Part shown: in pieces, positions 1 through 9,389 of the stretch | How the letters are laid out: every line of letters begins with the position of its first letter | Position numbering within the stretch: the stretch's first letter is position 1 | Assembly: GCF_019931675.1 (NCBI RefSeq) | Contig: NZ_CP082922.1 | Span: forward strand, 558,001 to 622,000 | Length of the DNA stretch: 64,000 bases | Direction of reading: 5' to 3' | Source of the DNA: Nocardioides rotundus | Lineage (GTDB): Bacteria > Actinomycetota > Actinomycetes > Propionibacteriales > Nocardioidaceae | Program-made: the position numbers and the translations under genes | The notes under the pieces: model-generated | The model's input: the letters and a program-made list of their open reading frames with translations, nothing else | What the model was told of the DNA's origin: nothing | Database searches by the model: none

Positions 1-1
1 A

Positions 2-487
2 GACGCTGACGATATCGCCTCCGTCCTCCACCATCGCGTCGCCCGCGCCACCGGACGCCCAGCCGGTTCCGGCCGATCGCGAAAGGTGCCACGCCTGATC
101 GCCGGGCTCGTCCCGCATGCGGACGGTCTGATGACGGACGACATGCGCCAGGCCCTGGAAGAACGACGGGAAATGATCGAGAAGCGAGCTGATGCCGTGC
201 TCAACCGTGCGGTCACTGACGCCGAGCCCTGGACTGCGGCGCTGGGCGTCCCTCCCCGTGACCCGCGCAAAGCACGTGCCTGGCGGTGCCACGCCCGTAC
301 AGTCGTTGCCTACCGGGATCGGTACGCGATCAGCGATGACGCCGTCCTCGGTGCGATACCGCAGACGACGGCGCAGAAGATCGACCGGGCCAGAGCAGAA
401 GCCGCGCTCCGCCAGCTCGCGCCCGAGGCGGAAGCACCCAAGCCCCATCAACGGACCGTTCCGGCTCGCCAAGGACCGGGCCTGTAG
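2..487 (+). CDS. MobF/TrwC-type conjugative relaxase, C-terminal fragment (5' end outside window)
   Basis: The frame is open from the window edge to the TAG at 485-487, so only the last 161 codons are seen. The fragment carries the pattern found near the C-terminus of actinobacterial relaxase/helicase (TraA/TrwC-like) proteins: a Trp-Thr-Ala-Ala-Leu-Gly stretch, then an Arg-Ala-Trp-Arg segment and VVAYRDRYAI. The family nicks and unwinds DNA at oriT for conjugative transfer. The relaxase and Walker motifs would lie upstream and cannot be checked, so whether the gene is intact is unknown. A GTG at 86 is in frame but would give a 133-residue protein without a domain, so I treat the frame as a continuation. 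It marks the neighbouring defence genes as lying on an integrative or plasmid-derived region. Confidence 0.65.
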   Translation, partial: DADDIASVLHHRVARATGRPAGSGRSRKVPRLIAGLVPHADGLMTDDMRQALEERREMIEKRADAVLNRAVTDAEPWTAALGVPPRDPRKARAWRCHARTVVAYRDRYAISDDAVLGAIPQTTAQKIDRARAEAALRQLAPEAEAPKPHQRTVPARQGPGL

Positions 488-670: not shown

Positions 671-2704
671 TTGCCATCGCAACAAGAGGCTGAACCCCTG
701 CCGCACCCGGGGTTGCCCGATGAGGCTCACGGGAGTGCCCACGACCTCCGCGGTCGGCTTTGGTCCGATGAGCCCTCCACGATCGACTTCTTGTCAGCTC
801 GCGCCATCGCTGAGACCGTCTCCGATGCCGTCCTTGATGACGCTCTCGACCCGCTCGCGATCGGGCTCTCGGGTCCGTGGGGAAGCGGCAAGACGACCGT
901 GCTTGAACTCGTCAAGAAGGACCTCGACCAACGAAGCGACCCCGAAGCAGCGAAGATCATCACCGTCCGCACGGACCCATGGCGCTATGACCCGGCCGTG
1001 GGAGCAAAAGAAACCCTGATCGGCGAGGTGCTCGAAGCCCTTGCCGCTGAACTCGCCCAGCAGGTGGCGGAACAGGACGCAGCACAGACCAGGACGGACA
1101 AGGCCAAGAAGCTGCTGAAGAAGCTCTCTGATCGCGTCGACTGGTCCAAGGCAATCAGGTTGGCGGCCAAGTCCTCTCTGACGCTTCAGCTCCCGGGGAT
1201 CGATGACGTGATCGGCCTCATCCGTGAGAAGAGCGACGAGGGCGACGATCAACCCGATCAACCTCGGGGCCTTGCAGGCTTCAAGGCTGAGTTCGCTGAG
1301 TTGATGGGGACGGACGAGCTAGCGCACGTCAAGCGTGTTGCGGTCCTGGTGGATGACCTCGACCGCTGCCTGGTGGACACCGTGGTGGAGACCCTGGAAA
1401 CCATCCGTCTGTTCCTCAGCGTGACCGGGATGTCCTTCGTCATCGCCGCTGACGAAGAGCGAGTGGCCGAAGCGATTCGCACCAAGCTGCCGGAATCCAC
1501 CATGCCCCCGGAGCGTGCGGAATCTGACGAGAGCCTGCCAGCCGAACCGCCGTCGAAGCTGTACCTCCACAAGATTGTTCAGACCACCGTGCCCCTGCCG
1601 GCGCTCGGCGCGTTCGACACGGAGGCCTACGTCCTGCTGCTCCAGCTCCAGAACCGTCTTGAATCACCGCTGACTCAAGATCAATTGCAGCGCGTCATCG
1701 ACGAGTGCCAGCGGCTTCGTGGCGTTGGCGTGCTCGATGATCTGCAGGCGCCGGACGGGCTTGACGTACAGCATGAACTCTCGTTCGCTCACCGTCTCAC
1801 CACGATCCTGTACGAAAAGTTGCGGGGCAACCCCAGGCGCATCAAGCGCTTTCTCAACGATCTCAACATCCGCCGATCGATTGCGGCGCGCCGAGGCATC
1901 CATCTGGAATTCGAGGTGGTCGCCAAGCTCATGGTCCTGGAAGTGCTGCTTCCCGACCAATTTCAGGCGGTGCTGTCCTGGCTGCGGACCGGTGAACTTC
2001 GGGACCATCTGGAGTCTCTGGAGTCGCTGGCCAATAAACCCAAGATCACGCCCGAGGAGGAGTCGGTCGATCGCGTCGAACGCGCGTCCCTCCTCGCGGC
2101 CGGCGAGGAAGACAGGTCCGAAGGCCAGAGCGACGAGGTAACGATCCCCTCTCTCGCTGTGGCCACAGACTTCGCCGACGATCTACTCCGATGGGCGAAG
2201 CTTCCCCCAGACCTGCACGAGATCGACCTCAGCCCATATCTCCACCTCGCTGCCTCATTCCGTGGTGACCTTCTGGTCAGCGCGGAGCTCCCACAGCGGC
2301 TCCGCGATCTCGCTGCCCAGCTTGCCTCAGCACGAACTGTCGATCGCCATCAAGTCTCGGAGGAGAGCTTGGCAGCTCTCCCTCCGGAAGACATTGCACA
2401 ACTCGTCCGCCACCTTTCGCTGCGCGCCCGCGACCGCATCCAGGAGCAACGCGGGGCGGTCACCGGCATCGGCCGGTTGGCCCAAGCACACCCTCCCGTC
2501 CGCGGCTCAGCCCTGGACGCCTTTCGCCGCCTCCCGGCCAAGGATCTCCAAGTCGGTACAGCCATTCACCTGGCCGGCCTGCAGATCCCAGGAATGCAAA
2601 ACGTCATCGCAGATCTCGCAAGCCGCTTATCGGATGACGATAAGAGACAACGAGAGATAAAGAGGGCGTTGACCACGCCACCGCCGAGAAGGAGGCAGAC
2701 CTGA
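671..2704 (+). CDS. qatA: QatA: KAP-family P-loop ATPase of a Qat anti-phage system
   Basis: A 677-residue KAP NTPase. Walker A is GPWGSGKTT (residues 68-76) and Walker B is VLVDDLDRC (about 225-233), followed by the GMSFVIAADEERV segment typical of KAP ATPases, where a long insertion splits the NTPase core. Start is TTG at 671, supported by the purine-rich AAGGAGAGAAGG just upstream; no ATG gives a better fit. It is the first gene of the set qatA-qatB-qatC-qatD, with the next start overlapping its stop by one base. In the published QatABCD family the four proteins together protect against phage; the exact role of the ATPase is not settled, and a sensing or remodelling role is inference. Codon use is less GC-rich than in the backbone genes, consistent with horizontal acquisition. 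Confidence 0.88.
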   Translation: MPSQQEAEPLPHPGLPDEAHGSAHDLRGRLWSDEPSTIDFLSARAIAETVSDAVLDDALDPLAIGLSGPWGSGKTTVLELVKKDLDQRSDPEAAKIITVRTDPWRYDPAVGAKETLIGEVLEALAAELAQQVAEQDAAQTRTDKAKKLLKKLSDRVDWSKAIRLAAKSSLTLQLPGIDDVIGLIREKSDEGDDQPDQPRGLAGFKAEFAELMGTDELAHVKRVAVLVDDLDRCLVDTVVETLETIRLFLSVTGMSFVIAADEERVAEAIRTKLPESTMPPERAESDESLPAEPPSKLYLHKIVQTTVPLPALGAFDTEAYVLLLQLQNRLESPLTQDQLQRVIDECQRLRGVGVLDDLQAPDGLDVQHELSFAHRLTTILYEKLRGNPRRIKRFLNDLNIRRSIAARRGIHLEFEVVAKLMVLEVLLPDQFQAVLSWLRTGELRDHLESLESLANKPKITPEEESVDRVERASLLAAGEEDRSEGQSDEVTIPSLAVATDFADDLLRWAKLPPDLHEIDLSPYLHLAASFRGDLLVSAELPQRLRDLAAQLASARTVDRHQVSEESLAALPPEDIAQLVRHLSLRARDRIQEQRGAVTGIGRLAQAHPPVRGSALDAFRRLPAKDLQVGTAIHLAGLQIPGMQNVIADLASRLSDDDKRQREIKRALTTPPPRRRQT

Positions 2705-3501
2705 TGGGCACCAAAGGTTCGTACTCTGGGGGCGGCGGAGCCGTCGGCGACGACATCCGCGACGGGCTCGACGATTGGCTCGACTCCCTGCCCGGTGGCC
2801 CCGGCCCGCAAGACCCCGTTCCCGGTGACGGCCACCCAGAGCAGCTGCCGTTGCCGTCATCGCGGCCATCGCCGTCATCGCCAGCGGGCCGGATACTTCC
2901 AACAGCCGCCCTGTTCCGGTCATCCAGGGGCGGCGGTGCCGGACGGTCACAGCGCAACTCGACTGCCGCCTTGAGTCGGTCGGCCGCGACGTCCGCGCGG
3001 TCGGCGGGCCGCGGCGCTGCAGCCGCCTATGCCTACAGGACCGGCGATGCCCAGACGCTGCGTGACCTCGGTCTTGACTACGACGCACTGCGCACCAACC
3101 CCAACATCTTCGACGTTGCCCACCAGATCGCGCAGAAGGTCTGCGAAGACCTCCCCGATGGGACCATCGAGACCGCCGAGCAGCTCCAGGTCGTCGCCAA
3201 CCTCGCCGAATGGCTCATGCAGCGCGACGCCTCCGGCGCGGATGTGTCCGTCGGACAGATCGCCGAAGAAGCCGTAGCGCTGATCCTTGCCGAGGCATAT
3301 TTGGTGGAAACAGCTTCCGCACTCAATACCAAGGACATGACGGGAACGCAGCGCGCCAGTTTTGAGAACGATGTGCGCCAAGCAGCCGAGGAACTGGCCG
3401 CTCACGCCAACCTCTCACCGACCGGCCCCAGCGCAGCGGAGTTCACCCGGGCCATCGAGGACGGCCTCGAATACCTCCGCGCCCTCCACGAGGAGCCGTG
3501 A
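2704..3501 (+). CDS. qatB: QatB: Qat anti-phage system component
   Basis: A 265-residue protein starting with a glycine/serine-rich MGTKGSYSGGGGAVGDD segment, then a Pro/Ser/Arg-rich linker (about 40-110) and a mostly helical, Ala/Glu-rich C-terminal domain (about 110-265). The short Gly-rich N-terminus and the position between a KAP ATPase and a QueC-like protein match QatB. No enzymatic motif, signal peptide or membrane segment is visible. Its ATG overlaps the qatA stop (TGATG), and its own stop overlaps the start region of qatC, so the genes are translationally coupled. Biochemical function is unknown in the family; assignment rests mainly on context and the N-terminal signature. Confidence 0.8.
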   Translation: MGTKGSYSGGGGAVGDDIRDGLDDWLDSLPGGPGPQDPVPGDGHPEQLPLPSSRPSPSSPAGRILPTAALFRSSRGGGAGRSQRNSTAALSRSAATSARSAGRGAAAAYAYRTGDAQTLRDLGLDYDALRTNPNIFDVAHQIAQKVCEDLPDGTIETAEQLQVVANLAEWLMQRDASGADVSVGQIAEEAVALILAEAYLVETASALNTKDMTGTQRASFENDVRQAAEELAAHANLSPTGPSAAEFTRAIEDGLEYLRALHEEP

Positions 3502-4793
3502 TGGCCGAGTTCGACCTCAGGTTCCAAGTCCCCGCGACCGTCACCGCCCAAGCCGCGCAACGAACGCTGTACTGGCCGACCACTGGCACGGGAAGCTACA
3601 ACACCCCTCTCGGTCCCCGTCTCGGGCACCTCGGCCCCGTCCGGCAGCCGAACGCTGACCTGTTCCGCCTCGCGGCCATGGTCTACGCCGCCGACCGCTC
3701 CGTGCCTCGCCAGGCCGGTCGAGTGAACTGGACCCGACGAAGCTTCGAACTGACCGTACCTGTCCTCGGCGACGCTGAGTCATGGAACAGTGTTGCCCAC
3801 GAGCTCGCGCGACTGCTGGACTTCCTCTCCGGCGATGAATGGCGGCTGACCTTCCGGAGAACGCGCCTTCCACGCGAGTCGATCGCTGACAACCAGCACC
3901 GCGATGCCGAACGTGTCGTGCTGATGAGCGGCGGCGCGGATTCGGCGATCGGTGCATTCCTGGCGCGCACGCATCCAGAGCCCCACGTGCTGGTGTCCCA
4001 CGTCGGTGCCACTTCCATCTTCCCGATACAGCGAGACGTCGCAGCACGAATCCGCGACCTACGCTCCACCGGCTCCGTCCAGCACCACCGCCAAGTCCGG
4101 TTCACACGCAGCCAGACCCAACCCGGCGGTCACCGCTTCCGGAATGAGAACAGCACGCGGACCCGGTCGTTCTTGTTTCTCGCTCTGGGGCTGGCGGTGG
4201 CATCCCTCAACGACGTGCCACTGTGGATACCCGAGAACGGCTTCGCCTCCCTCAACCCACCACTTGGCCCAGATCAGTTGGGAAGCTTGTCCACGCGGAC
4301 CACGCACCCATGGTTCTTGACTGAGCTGTCCCGGCTCGCTCGGCAGGTCGGTGCCACCGCCGAGATCACCAATCCCTTCGCCCGGCAAACCAAGGGCGAG
4401 ATGTTCCGCTGGCTCGCCGACGAGATCGGTGACGACAAGATCGCCGGTGATTTCCTCAGCGCCACCAACTCCTGTGCCCACACCAGCCGCCGGTGGCTCG
4501 GTGTCACAGCGCAGCACCACTGCGGAACCTGCTTCGGCTGCCTCGTCCGCCGCGCCTCATTCGCCGCCGCAAGCCTGCCCGACACGAGTACTTACGTCTC
4601 AGACTCCTGGCCGAACGACCGCGTGAAATCACAGCTGCAGAACGCCTCCGTCCTGCCCAGTATCCGTGGCTTCGTCGCCCGAGGCATCCGCGTCAGCGAC
4701 ATTGCCGCCATGCGCCTCCCGGACGGCTACTCCGCCAGCGAAGCCCGTGATCTCTGCACCCGTGGCGCTTGCGAACTGGCGTTGCTCACATGA
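3501..4793 (+). CDS. qatC: QatC: QueC-like PP-loop protein of Qat anti-phage system
   Basis: A 430-residue protein with a PP-loop ATP-pyrophosphatase motif SGGADS (about residues 143-148) and, near residues 325-347, four cysteines in a CX15CXXCXXC array (HCGTCFGC), the zinc site known from QueC (7-cyano-7-deazaguanine synthase). QueC makes a nitrile from carboxydeazaguanine; QatC proteins share the fold, but their substrate in defence is unresolved. An N-terminal extension of about 130 residues precedes the PP-loop, longer than housekeeping QueC. ATG 3501 has AGGAG five bases upstream; the GTG at 3498 is an alternative and would sit too close. No queD, queE or queF lies nearby, which argues for a defence rather than a tRNA-modification role. 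Confidence 0.86.
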   Translation: MAEFDLRFQVPATVTAQAAQRTLYWPTTGTGSYNTPLGPRLGHLGPVRQPNADLFRLAAMVYAADRSVPRQAGRVNWTRRSFELTVPVLGDAESWNSVAHELARLLDFLSGDEWRLTFRRTRLPRESIADNQHRDAERVVLMSGGADSAIGAFLARTHPEPHVLVSHVGATSIFPIQRDVAARIRDLRSTGSVQHHRQVRFTRSQTQPGGHRFRNENSTRTRSFLFLALGLAVASLNDVPLWIPENGFASLNPPLGPDQLGSLSTRTTHPWFLTELSRLARQVGATAEITNPFARQTKGEMFRWLADEIGDDKIAGDFLSATNSCAHTSRRWLGVTAQHHCGTCFGCLVRRASFAAASLPDTSTYVSDSWPNDRVKSQLQNASVLPSIRGFVARGIRVSDIAAMRLPDGYSASEARDLCTRGACELALLT

Positions 4794-5563
4794 GCACGAA
4801 CTGGCCGCCGCTTGACACGCACGCCCATATCGACGTCTCGATAGACCCCAGGGAACTGTTGAACCTGCGGGCTGTGGTCTTTGCAGCGAACCGCAGCCTT
4901 CAACAATCCCAGCAGTCCCTAGACCGCCAGCATCGCGACCTCTTGACGGTGTGGGGCGTGGGAGTGCACCCCGGGGTCAAGACGGCCTTGGAGGGCTTCG
5001 ACCCAGCAACGTTTCACGCCCTGATGCAACGGACCGCGTACGTCGGTGAGATCGGCCTTGATGGAAGGACCAAGTCCCGCCTCCCTCTGCAACGTGACGT
5101 CTTCGCGGCCATCCTCCAACACCTCCAGCAACACCCACGGTTGACCTCGATTCACAGCCAAGGTGCAACAGCCGAAGTCATCGACGAACTCGAACGCACA
5201 CCGATTCAGGGCGTCATCCTCCACTGGTGGCTCGGGGAACCAGCGCTCACCAAGAGAGCCGTCGAGCTGGGTGCCTACTTCTCCATCAACGCCTCCTCCG
5301 TCCGCCGAACAGAGGTGATCGACCTCATCCCTCTCGACCGCCTCCTCGTCGAGACGGATCATCCGGACGGCAACCGCTCGGCCCATCAGCCCCGACCGGG
5401 CAACGTATCCGACGTCGAAAGCGCCTTGGCGCGGAAGCACCACGTCACGCCGTCCGTGCTGCGTGCCACCACGTGGAAGAACCTCGCGACGCTCGCGCAC
5501 GTCTCCGGCACGCGTCCCCTACTGCCACCCCGGGTCGGCGCCATTCTGGATTCGACCCAGTAG
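4790..5563 (+). CDS. qatD: QatD: TatD-like metal-dependent nuclease of Qat anti-phage system
   Basis: A 257-residue TatD-family hydrolase. The metal-binding pattern is present: HAH (H11, H13), E87 in GEIGLDG, H122 in SIHSQG, H145 in ILHWW, and D190 in ETDHPDGN, so the TIM-barrel active site looks intact. TatD enzymes are DNases; in Qat systems this subunit is the presumed nucleic-acid effector. The ATG at 4790 overlaps the qatC stop as ATGA, which chooses it over an in-frame start at 4769. The gene ends the qat operon; the next gene downstream is on the other strand. Confidence 0.86.
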   Translation: MSTNWPPLDTHAHIDVSIDPRELLNLRAVVFAANRSLQQSQQSLDRQHRDLLTVWGVGVHPGVKTALEGFDPATFHALMQRTAYVGEIGLDGRTKSRLPLQRDVFAAILQHLQQHPRLTSIHSQGATAEVIDELERTPIQGVILHWWLGEPALTKRAVELGAYFSINASSVRRTEVIDLIPLDRLLVETDHPDGNRSAHQPRPGNVSDVESALARKHHVTPSVLRATTWKNLATLAHVSGTRPLLPPRVGAILDSTQ

Positions 5564-6194: not shown

Positions 6195-6800
6195 TCACCG
6201 TTCACGGCCGTGGCAGTCGCGCATAGCAACGCCCCGGGACAGTAGCCAGTTGCGGACAGTGCCGGCAGAGAAGCCGAGGCGGGCACCGACCCGTTCCAGC
6301 GACTCACCTCCCTCATACAGGCGGACCATCTCATCCACTTCCGCATCCGAGGGAGAGCTTCGCCGAAGCTTGATACCTCGCGACCGAAGCAGCGCGGCCA
6401 ATCGCTCACGACTCACACCTACGTCCGAGGCGATCTCTCGCAGTGTCGCTCCCGCCTCGTAGCGGTTTTCCGCCGCGGCCAAGTCGTATTCGCTGACCCT
6501 TGTCGCCTGACGCACGCAGGCCGCACGACGGGGCTTGAAACTGCTATCTCGAAGTCTGATCGCATAGTGCACCGCGGCCACGCGCGACACCGGCGGGGCG
6601 AGTTTCGAAAACGCTCCCGCTAGGTCCACCGAGTAGTTCTTCATCGAACCCCAGCTGGCTGTCGGCAGGATGTCGCTCTTGATCTGGTCGACTAGGGCGA
6701 GTTGGGCTCTTTCGGCCGGCCCGGGCGGCACTGCTGCCCGGCCGCGACACGGGTCAAGCCGATCGCCGACTGGGGGTGGCTGGGGCGAAGATGGCGCCAT
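6195..6800 (-). CDS. Helix-turn-helix protein of recombinase-associated type
   Basis: The well-supported part is the C-terminal 130 residues with two consecutive helix-turn-helix units: YEAGATLREIASDVGVSRE, then YEGGESLERVGARLGFSAG, ending RGVAMRDCHGRER. This arrangement occurs in short actinobacterial proteins encoded near site-specific recombinases and IS elements. The start is uncertain: ATG 6800 has AGGAG about ten bases upstream, while ATG 6644 would give a 149-residue protein keeping both motifs. A DNA-binding regulatory role is inferred; no catalytic recombinase residues are seen. The left end of the IS256 element lies 38 bp upstream of the longer start. Confidence 0.55.
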   Translation of the reverse strand: MAPSSPQPPPVGDRLDPCRGRAAVPPGPAERAQLALVDQIKSDILPTASWGSMKNYSVDLAGAFSKLAPPVSRVAAVHYAIRLRDSSFKPRRAACVRQATRVSEYDLAAAENRYEAGATLREIASDVGVSRERLAALLRSRGIKLRRSSPSDAEVDEMVRLYEGGESLERVGARLGFSAGTVRNWLLSRGVAMRDCHGRER

Positions 6801-6837
6801 GGCCGCATCGCTCCTCGATCGAGTTGAGTCCTACAGA

Positions 6838-6850
6838 GTGGTGTACGACA
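6838..6850 (+). repeat. IS256 left terminal inverted repeat
   Basis: GTGGTGTACGACA, perfectly complementary to the right end at 8260-8272. Outside this core the similarity fades quickly. Confidence 0.85.
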
Positions 6851-6943
6851 GCCGGGTAGGGCGCGTGCCTCCCACGTAGGCGCGGCCACCGGGTGAATCC
6901 TTCGAGTGATCTTCCACAACCGACTCGAAGAAGGAGCACCACG

Positions 6944-8236
6944 ATGACCGCTGGACCCAGTATCGACCCTGCCGACGTCGCGAGCGGCAGGACGCTCGAG
7001 GCGGGCGAGTTCCTGCACGAGCAGCTCGCGCAGGCGAGCCCTGATCTGATGCGCGGCCTGTTGACCACGTTCGTGAACGCGCTGCTCGGCGCGGAGGCCG
7101 ACGCGGTGTGTGGCGCCGGCTACGGCACCCGGTCGCCGGAGCGGGTGAACTCACGCAACGGCTACCGCCACCGCGACCTCGACACCCGGATGGGCACGAT
7201 CGACGTCGCGATCCCGAAGCTCCGCACGGGCACGTACTTCCCCGAGTGGCTCCTCGAGCGTCGACGACGGGCCGAGGTCGCGCTGACGAGCGTGATCGCG
7301 ACCTGCTACCTGCTCGGCGTCTCGACCAGGCGGATGGACAAGCTCGTGCAGTCGCTCGGGATCACCGGGTTGTCGAAGTCCCAGGTCAGCGTGATGGCGC
7401 GCGACCTCGACGCGCACGTGACCGACTTCCGCACCCGGCCCCTCGACGCCGGCCCATACACGTTCGTGGCAGCAGACGCGCTCACGATGCGGGTCCGCGA
7501 AGGAGGCCGGGTAGTGAAAGTCGCGGTCATGGTCGCCACCGGCGTCAACGCCGACGGGCACCGCGAGGTCCTCGGCGTGCAGGTCGCGACTGGGGAGACC
7601 CACGCCGGCTGGCTGGCGTTCTTCCGCGACCTCGTCGCCCGAGGCCTGTCCGGCGTCGCGCTCGTGACCAGCGACGCCCACGCCGGTCTCGTCGAGGCGA
7701 TCGGCGCGACCCTGCCCGGCGCGGCCTGGCAGCGGTGCCGGACCCACTACGCGTTCAACCTCATGGGTCTGTGCCCCAAGGCCGCCTGGCCCGGCGTGAA
7801 GGCGATGCTCCACTCCGTCTACGACCAGCCCGACGCGAAGTCGGTCCACGCCCAGTTCGACAAGTTCCTCGACAGCGAGCTCATCACCTCGCTGCCCGCG
7901 GCCCGTGACCACCTCGACGGCGCCCGCGCCGACATCCTGTCCTTCACCGGTTTCCCGCGCGAGGTATGGCGCCAGATCTGGTCGAACAACCCCAACGAGC
8001 GCCTCAACCGCGAGATCCGACGGCGTACCGACGTCGTCGGGATCTTCCCCGACCGCGACGCGATCATCCGCCTCGTCGGAGCCGTCCTGGCCGAGCAACA
8101 CGACGAATGGACCGAGGGCCGGCGCTACCTCGGGCTCGACGTCCTCGCCCGCTCCCGCATGAACCTCGTCACCGGCACCATCGAGACCACCGGCACAACC
8201 ACCACCGACGACCAGGAGGCAGCCATCAGCGCCTAA
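6944..8236 (+). CDS. IS256-family transposase (Transposase_mut, DDE)
   Basis: A 430-residue DDE transposase, the usual length for the family. Candidate catalytic residues are D178 in VAADALTMRV, D244 in LVTSDAHAGL and E352 in SNNPNERLNREIRR; the C..H motif before the insertion domain is CRTHYAFNLM (about 265-274). The start at ATG 6944 follows AAGGAG; the frame extends upstream to a GTG at 6893 without a ribosome site. The reading frame is unbroken, so the element may be active. Confidence 0.92.
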   Translation: MTAGPSIDPADVASGRTLEAGEFLHEQLAQASPDLMRGLLTTFVNALLGAEADAVCGAGYGTRSPERVNSRNGYRHRDLDTRMGTIDVAIPKLRTGTYFPEWLLERRRRAEVALTSVIATCYLLGVSTRRMDKLVQSLGITGLSKSQVSVMARDLDAHVTDFRTRPLDAGPYTFVAADALTMRVREGGRVVKVAVMVATGVNADGHREVLGVQVATGETHAGWLAFFRDLVARGLSGVALVTSDAHAGLVEAIGATLPGAAWQRCRTHYAFNLMGLCPKAAWPGVKAMLHSVYDQPDAKSVHAQFDKFLDSELITSLPAARDHLDGARADILSFTGFPREVWRQIWSNNPNERLNREIRRRTDVVGIFPDRDAIIRLVGAVLAEQHDEWTEGRRYLGLDVLARSRMNLVTGTIETTGTTTTDDQEAAISA

Positions 8237-8258
8237 CGACACGCCCGACGAGGGATTC

Positions 8259-8963
8259 TTGTCGTACACCACCTCGAGGGACTTGACCCTCGATCGCGCG
8301 ATCTACTCCTACGCTGACGTAGATCGGCTCGTTGGCCTGCGTGCCGGCACCGCGAGCCGCTGGCTGGAGGGCTACGAGCGGCAAGGACGCTTCTACGACC
8401 CGGTGCTTCGACCCGAGCCGACCGGGTCCGATGTGGTCACGTGGGGCGAGATGGTTGAGGCGAGGCTGCTGGCCGAGTTCCGAGACCTGACGGTGCCTGT
8501 GCAGCGGATGCGCCCCGCAATCGTGAAACTGCGCGCGGAGTTCGGTCGCTACCCCCTGGCGCACGCCAGACCCCTCCTCGATGTCGAGGGCCGCGAGCTG
8601 GTCCAAGTGGTGCAGCAGGAGGTCGGACTCGCCCGAGACCTGCAGCTCGTTGTGGTGCGTGACGGTCAGTTCGTGCTCACTGACGCTGCGCAGCGGTTCA
8701 GTTCGGCGGTGGATTACGTGGAGTACGCCGGCAACGTGGCGGGCCTCATCCGTCCCGAGCAGCGGACCCCCGACGTGGTCATGGACCCGCTGCGGACGTT
8801 CGGCCAGCCGGCGGTGCGCAATGTTCGCACCGAGGCGCTCGCCGAGGACTACCGGGCGGGCACCAGCCGCGACGACCTTGCCGACCTCTATGACCTCACC
8901 CTTGAGCAGGTCGATGAAGCGATCCGCTTCGAGCTCATCGCGAGTGCCCAGCGCGCTGCCTGA
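8259..8963 (+). CDS. DUF433-type antitoxin (partner of a PIN-like VapC45-type toxin)
   Basis: A 234-residue protein with an N-terminal MerR-like helix-turn-helix (about residues 13-45, YSYADVDRLVGLRAGTASRW), a middle domain, and a C-terminal DUF433-like domain (about 175-230) containing VRTEALAEDYRAGTSRDDLADLYDL. Such proteins are encoded just before PIN-like toxins and neutralise them. The TTG at 8259 lies inside the right IS256 repeat and follows GAGGG; a TTG at 8283 is an alternative. The natural start was probably replaced by the IS insertion, because family members usually begin a few residues before the YSYADV motif. The gene ends two bases before the broken toxin. Confidence 0.72.
   Translation: MSYTTSRDLTLDRAIYSYADVDRLVGLRAGTASRWLEGYERQGRFYDPVLRPEPTGSDVVTWGEMVEARLLAEFRDLTVPVQRMRPAIVKLRAEFGRYPLAHARPLLDVEGRELVQVVQQEVGLARDLQLVVVRDGQFVLTDAAQRFSSAVDYVEYAGNVAGLIRPEQRTPDVVMDPLRTFGQPAVRNVRTEALAEDYRAGTSRDDLADLYDLTLEQVDEAIRFELIASAQRAA
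8260..8272 (-). repeat. IS256 right terminal inverted repeat
   Basis: Reads GTGGTGTACGACA on the minus strand. It contains the TTG used here as start of the following antitoxin gene. Confidence 0.85.
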
Positions 8964-8965
8964 TC

Positions 8966-9389
8966 ATGGCGGCCGGGTTGCCGGTGTACTTCACCGGCCG
9001 AGAACACCCTGGGCCTCGGCAAATTGCTGCGTCGCGCCGGCCTGGCGGACGTCGTCTACCCGGGCCACGAGGACCTACCCGAAGTTCCGGTCGGTACGCC
9101 CGATCTGGACTGGATGCCGGTCGTCGCGCGACGGAACCTCGTCGTCCTGACACGGGACAAGCGGGTCCGCACCCGACCGGCCGAGCTGCGGGCTTACTGG
9201 GAACACGGCATCCGCTCCGTATGGATCGGCGCCAAGCAAGATCTCGGACCGCGTCAGCAGGTCGAGTTGTTCCTCCAGCACGAGAAGCGTCTCCAACGCG
9301 AGATCACCCAGCGTGGCCCCGGCCCGCGGGCGCTGGCGATGAACCCATCCGGCGTTCGTCCGCTCAACCTGCGTTCGCCCGGCAGCTAG
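8966..9389 (+). pseudogene. PIN-like (VapC45-type) toxin, frameshifted
   Basis: From ATG 8966 the first ten codons read MAAGLPVYFT, the expected beginning of a PIN-like toxin. The downstream frame beginning ENTLGLGKLLRRAGLADVV (9000 onward) then continues as GTPDLDWMPVVARRNLVVLTRDKRVRTRPAEL to the TAG at 9387-9389. The two parts lie in different frames, and one missing base near 8998-9000 would join them into a single 141-residue PIN-like protein. With the shift, the first-frame product has no domain; a TTG at 9024 could restart translation but would lack the N-terminal acidic residue region. Family members are ribonuclease toxins. A sequencing error cannot be excluded. Confidence 0.7.

Follow-up and report, generated by a model that had tools for sequence, protein, structure and literature searches.

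A complete, intact copy of QatABCD, a known defence system, in a divergent actinobacterial form, lies at positions 671-5563 of the 64,000-nucleotide (nt) stretch of Nocardioides rotundus DNA analysed here (contig NZ_CP082922.1; all positions are those of this stretch, called the window, whose position 1 is contig position 558,001). We consider it highly probable that this apparently intact operon was gained by horizontal transfer, next to a MobF relaxase gene, and that its QatC, by homology, would modify the N-terminal glycine of QatB. The locus consists of four overlapping frames on the plus strand, free of internal stops, in the order qatA-qatB-qatC-qatD; qatA and qatB share 1 base, qatB and qatC 1 base, and qatC and qatD 4 bases. 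qatA (671-2704) encodes a 677-residue P-loop NTPase of the KAP family, and its TTG start codon is a predicted one, placed by the ribosome-binding-site-like GGAAGGAGAGAAGGA just 5′ of it. The product of qatB (2704-3501, ATG start) has 265 residues, with an MGTK N-terminus, a Gly-rich disordered tail that includes Trp25, and a helical core. qatC (3501-4793) encodes a QueC-family ATP-dependent enzyme of 430 residues when read from the ATG at 3501, and qatD (4790-5563) a TatD-like metal-dependent nuclease of 257 residues when read from the ATG at 4790; the program-made list of open reading frames (ORFs) starts these two at GTG 3498 and TTG 4769, respectively. Pfam assigned KAP_NTPase to QatA (1.5e-36), TatD_DNase to QatD (2e-30) and QueC to QatC (4.9e-6). 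By script we located a Walker A motif, GPWGSGKT, at residue 68 of QatA and a Walker-B-like VAVLVDDLDR at residue 223, and in QatD the motifs THAH, VGEIGLD, SIHSQ, ILHWW and ETDHPDG, whose residues we take to be those of the TatD metal site. Among 75 related loci, 66 have the homologues of A, C and D in this same order. An earlier note on this DNA had described four overlapping genes in this order and with these domains, including a KAP ATPase with Walker motifs and a TatD-like nuclease with its metal site, as a complete QatABCD, a system known since 2020, and the identification holds for all four genes. The PADLOC Qat models, which the note had proposed as a check, recognised QatA (2.6e-77), QatC (2.7e-76) and QatD (6.2e-36), but gave no match for QatB.

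Because QatB escapes the PADLOC, Pfam and NCBIfam libraries, with no match in any of them, annotation by these libraries would leave the QatB of this lineage as a hypothetical protein within a recognisable operon, and it is shown as such in two plasmid records (L004, L005). We therefore compared families: there were 190 relatives of QatB, 120 of them listed, and hhalign aligned the actinobacterial QatB family (51 sequences) with other QatB proteins (22 sequences) at a probability of 98.8 and an E-value of 1.1e-16 over 244 columns. Since the starts had been picked using the Met-Gly motif, the comparison was repeated without the first residues, and the E-value was 1.7e-11 with the first 60 removed and 1.1e-10 with 90 removed; a reversed-family control gave 7e-4. 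One of the 22 other proteins, the QatB of Delftia, matched the solved QatB 9ZEE at 9.1e-52. The profile homology that remains without the tail, together with this link to 9ZEE, indicates through intermediates that the second gene product is QatB, and the small Gly-rich QatB named in the earlier note is thereby borne out. An AlphaFold model of the protein, of low confidence (pLDDT 68, pTM 0.58, with residues 1-11 and 32-91 below 50), has an all-helical core and would be in keeping with the published helical QatB and its disordered tail.

The residue on which QatC would act is strongly conserved. Gly2 was found in all 111 QatB homologues of at least 250 residues among the matches listed, and in 113 of all 120 listed. 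When the start was chosen independently of the motif, as the start codon nearest the qatA stop in each locus (13 of 79 loci were untestable), x-Gly-(Thr/Ser/His) was read in 63 of the 66 testable loci. The three exceptions were L007, where qatB is in two pieces, L078 and L082; in L082 the annotated qatB start is again a different one, located at locus position 4160 and giving MGTS. Among 73 QatB N-termini there were 56 MGTS, 13 MGTK, 2 MGHK, 1 MGSK and 1 MGTN, the window QatB belonging to the Lys4 group (MGTK), and 65 of the 73 had a Trp within the first 50 residues. Gly2 of Pseudomonas aeruginosa QatB is required for defence, and QatB-QatC is the minimal defending unit (PMC13279940). As a separate observation, qatB was broken, partial or not one frame at the Qat loci L007, L057, L064 and L078, and the QatC frame was also broken up in L053 and L064.

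Searched against the PDB, QatC retrieved only the two crystallised QatC proteins, 9ZEE (2.3e-44) and 9VLK (8.2e-44). By script SGGADS was found at residue 143, TRTTHP at 265 and cysteines at 325, 341, 344 and 347; both the SGGADS motif and the four-Cys zinc site reported by the earlier note are thus present. Alignment with 9ZEE showed that the SGGxDS loop (143-148), R222 and F226 around the adenine and the four zinc cysteines are kept, and that T265 and T267 correspond to T278 and T280 of P. aeruginosa QatC, both of which are essential (PMC13279940). Across 75 of 80 QatC sequences (five shorter than 350 residues were left out of the alignment), the T265 column holds Thr in 74; at T267, 69 have Thr, 5 have Ser and one has a gap; S143, D147, S148 and each zinc Cys are invariant.

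For characterised Qat, the formation of a QatB-QatC complex, the need for the catalytic residues of QatC, and defence have been demonstrated, and the same work partly answers the question raised in the earlier note about the target of the QueC-like subunit: it is the N-terminus of QatB (PMC13279940). By homology with these systems, QatC of N. rotundus would bind QatB, activate a substrate with ATP and act on the QatB glycine that is exposed once the Met has been removed; QatB and QatC would form the core, to which QatA (the KAP ATPase) and QatD (the TatD-like nuclease) would add a wider range of phages resisted. Published work and the conserved residues together suggest ATP-dependent modification of the QatB N-terminus as the mechanism, with QatB as the presumed modified protein, and we infer that this copy of the operon is expressed and defending.

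The horizontal origin is suggested by the surroundings of the operon and by its distribution. Directly upstream of qatA, 184 bases away, is a gene for a MobF/TrwC relaxase-helicase, of which the 3′ end occupies positions 1-487 (plus strand); the complete gene has an open frame of 1185 codons, starts about 3.07 kb before the window (L091:6930-10484) and matches TrwC at 4.9e-95 and the NCBIfam MobF model with 244.8 bits (cut-off 100). Downstream, at 6827-8283 on the plus strand, is an insertion sequence (IS) of the IS256 family, with its transposase at 6893-8236 (NCBIfam transpos_IS256, 319.3 bits, cut-off 150) and, at its ends, candidate terminal inverted repeats (a 24-nt imperfect inverted repeat, 79%). 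The G+C content is 0.64-0.66 in the operon, mostly 0.69-0.76 in the later parts of the window, and 0.58-0.69 over 538-558 kb of the genome. As the relaxase and the transposase flank the operon and the G+C of the region is lower, the operon is likely to be carried by a mobile or island region. The earlier note had spoken of a relaxase tail and an IS adjoining the operon on a mobile island: both elements do flank it, but the relaxase is whole and the IS lies beyond another gene; and the island is supported by the MobF relaxase, the IS256 element and the lower G+C, but neither an integration boundary nor an attachment site was found.

Among 58 congeners, the search found a match of any kind in 3, the best of them 36% identical, and in G107 the match was 24% identical with stops; two further congeners, in the class sample described below, carry Qat with QatC 46% and 32% identical. 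The nearest named Qat relatives lie in other families or orders. A fixed genus site for Qat was considered and rejected, as blastn of the host region against two congener Qat loci and one from a genus of its family found no match at 1e-20, which makes these loci separate acquisitions. A phage origin was likewise rejected, QatC matching only 2 of 50,697 phage records. These two QatC-like matches (H21, H22) are unannotated, in Listeria phage records, with 25.9% identity over 71% of the query. A further oddity is a record of Stenotrophomonas maltophilia strain P13 (L031), at 2.7 Mb small for its name, which carries an actinobacterial-type Qat with QatC 46% identical and is probably a mislabelled or mixed record.

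Several observations weigh against the reading given above. QatA, QatC and QatD stay below the NCBIfam equivalog cut-offs (309.4 of 600, 279.9 of 280 and 131.3 of 230 bits, respectively), which makes this a divergent member of Qat. Sequence and profile searches with QatB alone retrieved no solved QatB, a structural comparison of its low-confidence model had no QatB among the matches listed, and its position 4 is Lys where 56 of 73 have Ser. A purely foreign origin is called into question by a 97% identical QatB in P0001, on one short contig, and by a partial 97% copy, P0032, on a 5.2-Mb contig, so that near-identical copies exist in some other genome. Finally, the QatC reaction has yet to be reconstituted by anyone, and its chemistry is acknowledged as an open question (PMC13279940, Discussion).

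What QatC would attach to QatB can be approached from the side of the hosts. In type IV CBASS, Cap9 joins 7-carboxy-7-deazaguanine (CDG) to its partner protein, and PMC13329287 gives FolE, QueD and QueE as the cellular route to CDG. The N. rotundus genome (4.09 Mb, one contig, 99.88% complete) has FolE (8.6e-75), and profile searches of the whole genome for QueD/PTPS, QueE and TGT gave no match. Nor was there a match to canonical QueC (PF06508) at 1e-3; this search also missed QatC itself, so that it excludes only a strong canonical QueC, and we put the weight on QueD, QueE and TGT. As controls, the same searches matched QueD/PTPS in 9, QueE in 10, TGT in 14 and QueC in 12 of 14 genomes. The earlier note's remark that the QueC-like subunit stands without other deazaguanine genes can thus be extended to the whole host genome, which had no QueC, QueD, QueE or TGT match. 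For hosts of this kind there are two readings: the ligand of QatC is not CDG made by the host, or its CDG has another source. In N. rotundus the conjugated ligand is presumably not CDG made by the host.

We extended the searches to the host and 49 isolates that carry Qat, 50 genomes in all (22 of 71 loci, which come from metagenome or uncultured records, were not included), covering contigs of at least 3 kb. PF01242, the QueD family, was matched in 16 of the 50 and had no match in 34, the host included, while TGT was found in 24 and FolE in 47. TIGR03365 (QueE) at 1e-8 or better matched nine genomes, eight of them among the 16 with PF01242 and the ninth (G035) without it, and 33 of the 34 PF01242-negative genomes had no QueE match stronger than that. 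At 1e-3 TIGR03365 matched 22 of the 50, many at about 20-28 bits, and we took these weak matches for other radical-SAM enzymes; Shewanella G043 had weak QueE matches only, so that genuine QueE proteins may escape the model. Given this risk and the weak selectivity of TIGR03365, we relied chiefly on PF01242 as the marker. As TGT was present in 17 of the 34 PF01242-negative genomes, salvage of a queuine-like base is possible in those, not in the N. rotundus host. Three of the 34 (G026, G037, G049) also lacked a FolE match, and their assemblies may be incomplete or divergent; for another of the 34, Glutamicibacter creatinolyticus (L034, G017), the record is titled a complete genome.

We also sampled the class evenly, taking 394 genomes of at least 95% completeness. 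QatC (cut-off 1e-20) occurred in 12, PF01242 (cut-off 1e-5) in 86 and both in four (G159, G341, G357, G492), the two counts being assumed, from shared handles, to come from the same 394 genomes. QueD was thus present in 4 of 12 Qat genomes and 82 of 382 others (Fisher odds ratio 1.83, p = 0.30), a relation that leans, if anywhere, to enrichment and does not show independence; 8 of the 12 do without it. Many Qat hosts, then, probably cannot make CDG themselves, which argues for another QatC ligand.

The active site points the same way. QueC and Cap9 read CDG with a Tyr/Asp pair, for which QatC has Thr/Thr, and restoring Tyr/Asp abolished defence; the authors of that work note that this speaks for a non-CDG ligand (PMC13279940). 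In the window QatC the pair is likewise absent, with T265 and T267 at the aligned positions and Thr or Ser in 74 of 75 sequences at each column. We consider that the ligand is probably not CDG, and hold the probability at about one half to two thirds because salvage, supply by phages and missed QueE remain. The fuller proposal, which we rate as an even chance, is that in this and most Qat hosts examined QatABCD is not a deazaguanylation system, QatC using its remodelled Thr-x-Thr pocket and ATP to activate a different, widely available carboxylate or nucleotide and joining it to the N-terminal glycine of QatB. If true, the QatC reaction on the QatB glycine would be a new protein modification. 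Intact Qat in hosts with no detectable CDG route argues, on comparative-genomic grounds, against a general role of CDG as the ligand; this argument is independent of the published one from the active site, and such hosts make the ligand directly testable. The literature searched contained no statement that Qat hosts lack QueD, though some QatBC papers lay beyond reach.

Alternatively, QatC works like Cap9 and conjugates CDG to QatB, the CDG coming from phage queD/queE, the environment or a non-homologous pathway. The two enzymes have in common their fold, their ATP site and an N-terminal glycine as substrate (PMC13279940), PMC13329287 names the QatC reaction carboxydeazaguanylation, as proposed, and 16 of the 50 Qat hosts do have a PF01242 match. 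Yet the other 34 do not, 33 of these without a QueE match above the threshold, and the Thr/Thr replacement and the loss of defence on reversion stand against it as well. Known Qat acts, moreover, on lambda and T4 in E. coli. These phages are not known to carry a CDG pathway, and on balance we find a Cap9-like reaction possible but doubtful.

A second alternative is that the operon has decayed or fallen silent, and that the island carries it as a passenger which no longer defends. Such a fate would fit the mobile surroundings, the missed NCBIfam cut-offs and the occurrence of broken or partial Qat copies in some related loci (4 of 79 were set aside as such). It is made very improbable by the four intact frames with their tight overlaps, the ribosome-binding-like sequence, the full set of catalytic residues, and QatC relatives 71-78% identical in five other genomes, all with four genes. 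That a queuosine-type nucleoside biosynthesis cluster or a type IV CBASS was misread as Qat hardly deserves belief. QatC does score above the Pfam threshold for QueC (26.6 bits, cut-off 22), but its partners are a KAP ATPase, QatB and TatD, none of ten neighbouring ORFs scanned had a CD-NTase or TGT-like match, the genome is without pathway gene matches, and the QatC-specific Thr-x-Thr residues together with these neighbours rule out both identities.

The relaxase upstream of the N. rotundus operon appears with other cargo elsewhere. A relaxase match of any kind was found at 7 of 75 Qat loci; in three the same relaxase family lies upstream of Qat (L013, 78% identical; L068, 72%; L011, 68%), and the other four are 26-30% identical. 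The QatC of L068 shares only 33% identity with the window copy, and with so distant a QatC beside a close relaxase, Qat seems to have entered the element more than once. The defence genes downstream of the MobF relaxase differ: Qat in the window and L013, Qat and a ShosA/DprA-like gene in L011, PD-Lambda-3_B and a distant Qat in L068, RmrA in L101 (3 of 7 ORFs scanned) and RmrT about 3 kb further on in L100 (1 of 9 scanned); in L099 there was no strong match among 3 of 11 ORFs scanned. In L013 a 183-residue ORF (L013:11060-11611) shares 4 bases with the end of qatD, as a fifth gene of the operon would, and has no Pfam or PADLOC match.

Other genes surround the operon in N. rotundus. A 201-residue protein with weak helix-turn-helix (HTH) matches is encoded at 6195-6800 on the minus strand, convergent with qatD. 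By tblastn its homologues occur in 8 of 75 Qat loci, of several genera, and those in L009, L010 and L011 are 49-51% identical and lie no more than about 100 bases from qatD; actinobacterial Qat may have it as an associated gene. Directly after the IS256 element come an HTH_66/DUF433 protein (8259-8963) and a PIN_10-domain protein (9024-9389), likely a toxin-antitoxin pair; the listed start of the former lies inside the IS256 end. Upstream of the relaxase, about 3.3-8.1 kb before the window start, is a 6A-MBL defence pair (L091:1878-6732), made up of an MBL-fold protein and an E2/ThiF/JAB-fusion cap2_3 protein (NCBIfam 269.6 bits, cut-off 220, and 341.8 bits, cut-off 320); after the pair comes a patatin-like phospholipase.

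QatABCD was reportedly described by Gao and colleagues in 2020 from P. aeruginosa and Escherichia coli. With the characterised systems of these two species (9ZEE/9ZEF, PMC13279940) the N. rotundus locus shares the four genes in the same order, the KAP and TatD partners, the ATP loop, zinc site and Thr-x-Thr of QatC, and the Met-Gly start and disordered tail of QatB. It differs in that the proteins are distant (2.3e-44 for QatC to 9ZEE, and QatB by profile comparison only), in the QatB start MGTK rather than MGTS, in a tail with DDWL in place of the PxW of characterised relatives, and in a host with no detectable 7-deazaguanine pathway. Its closest counterparts are five actinobacterial loci, from an uncultured Propionibacteriaceae (L013, QatC 78% identical), Brevibacterium senegalense (L009, 75%), Kocuria soli (L010, 74%), Microbacterium gorillae (L008, 73%) and Tessaracoccus bendigoensis (L011, 71%), which likewise have four genes, with QatB 73-83% identical and an MG(T/H)K start, whereas they belong to other orders or families and only L013 and L011 have the close upstream relaxase. 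Type IV CBASS resembles Qat in pairing a QueC-family enzyme with a partner on whose N-terminal glycine it acts (PMC13279940); Cap9, however, is shorter and keeps the CDG-reading Tyr/Asp, and its partner is a CD-NTase, whereas that of QatC is QatB.

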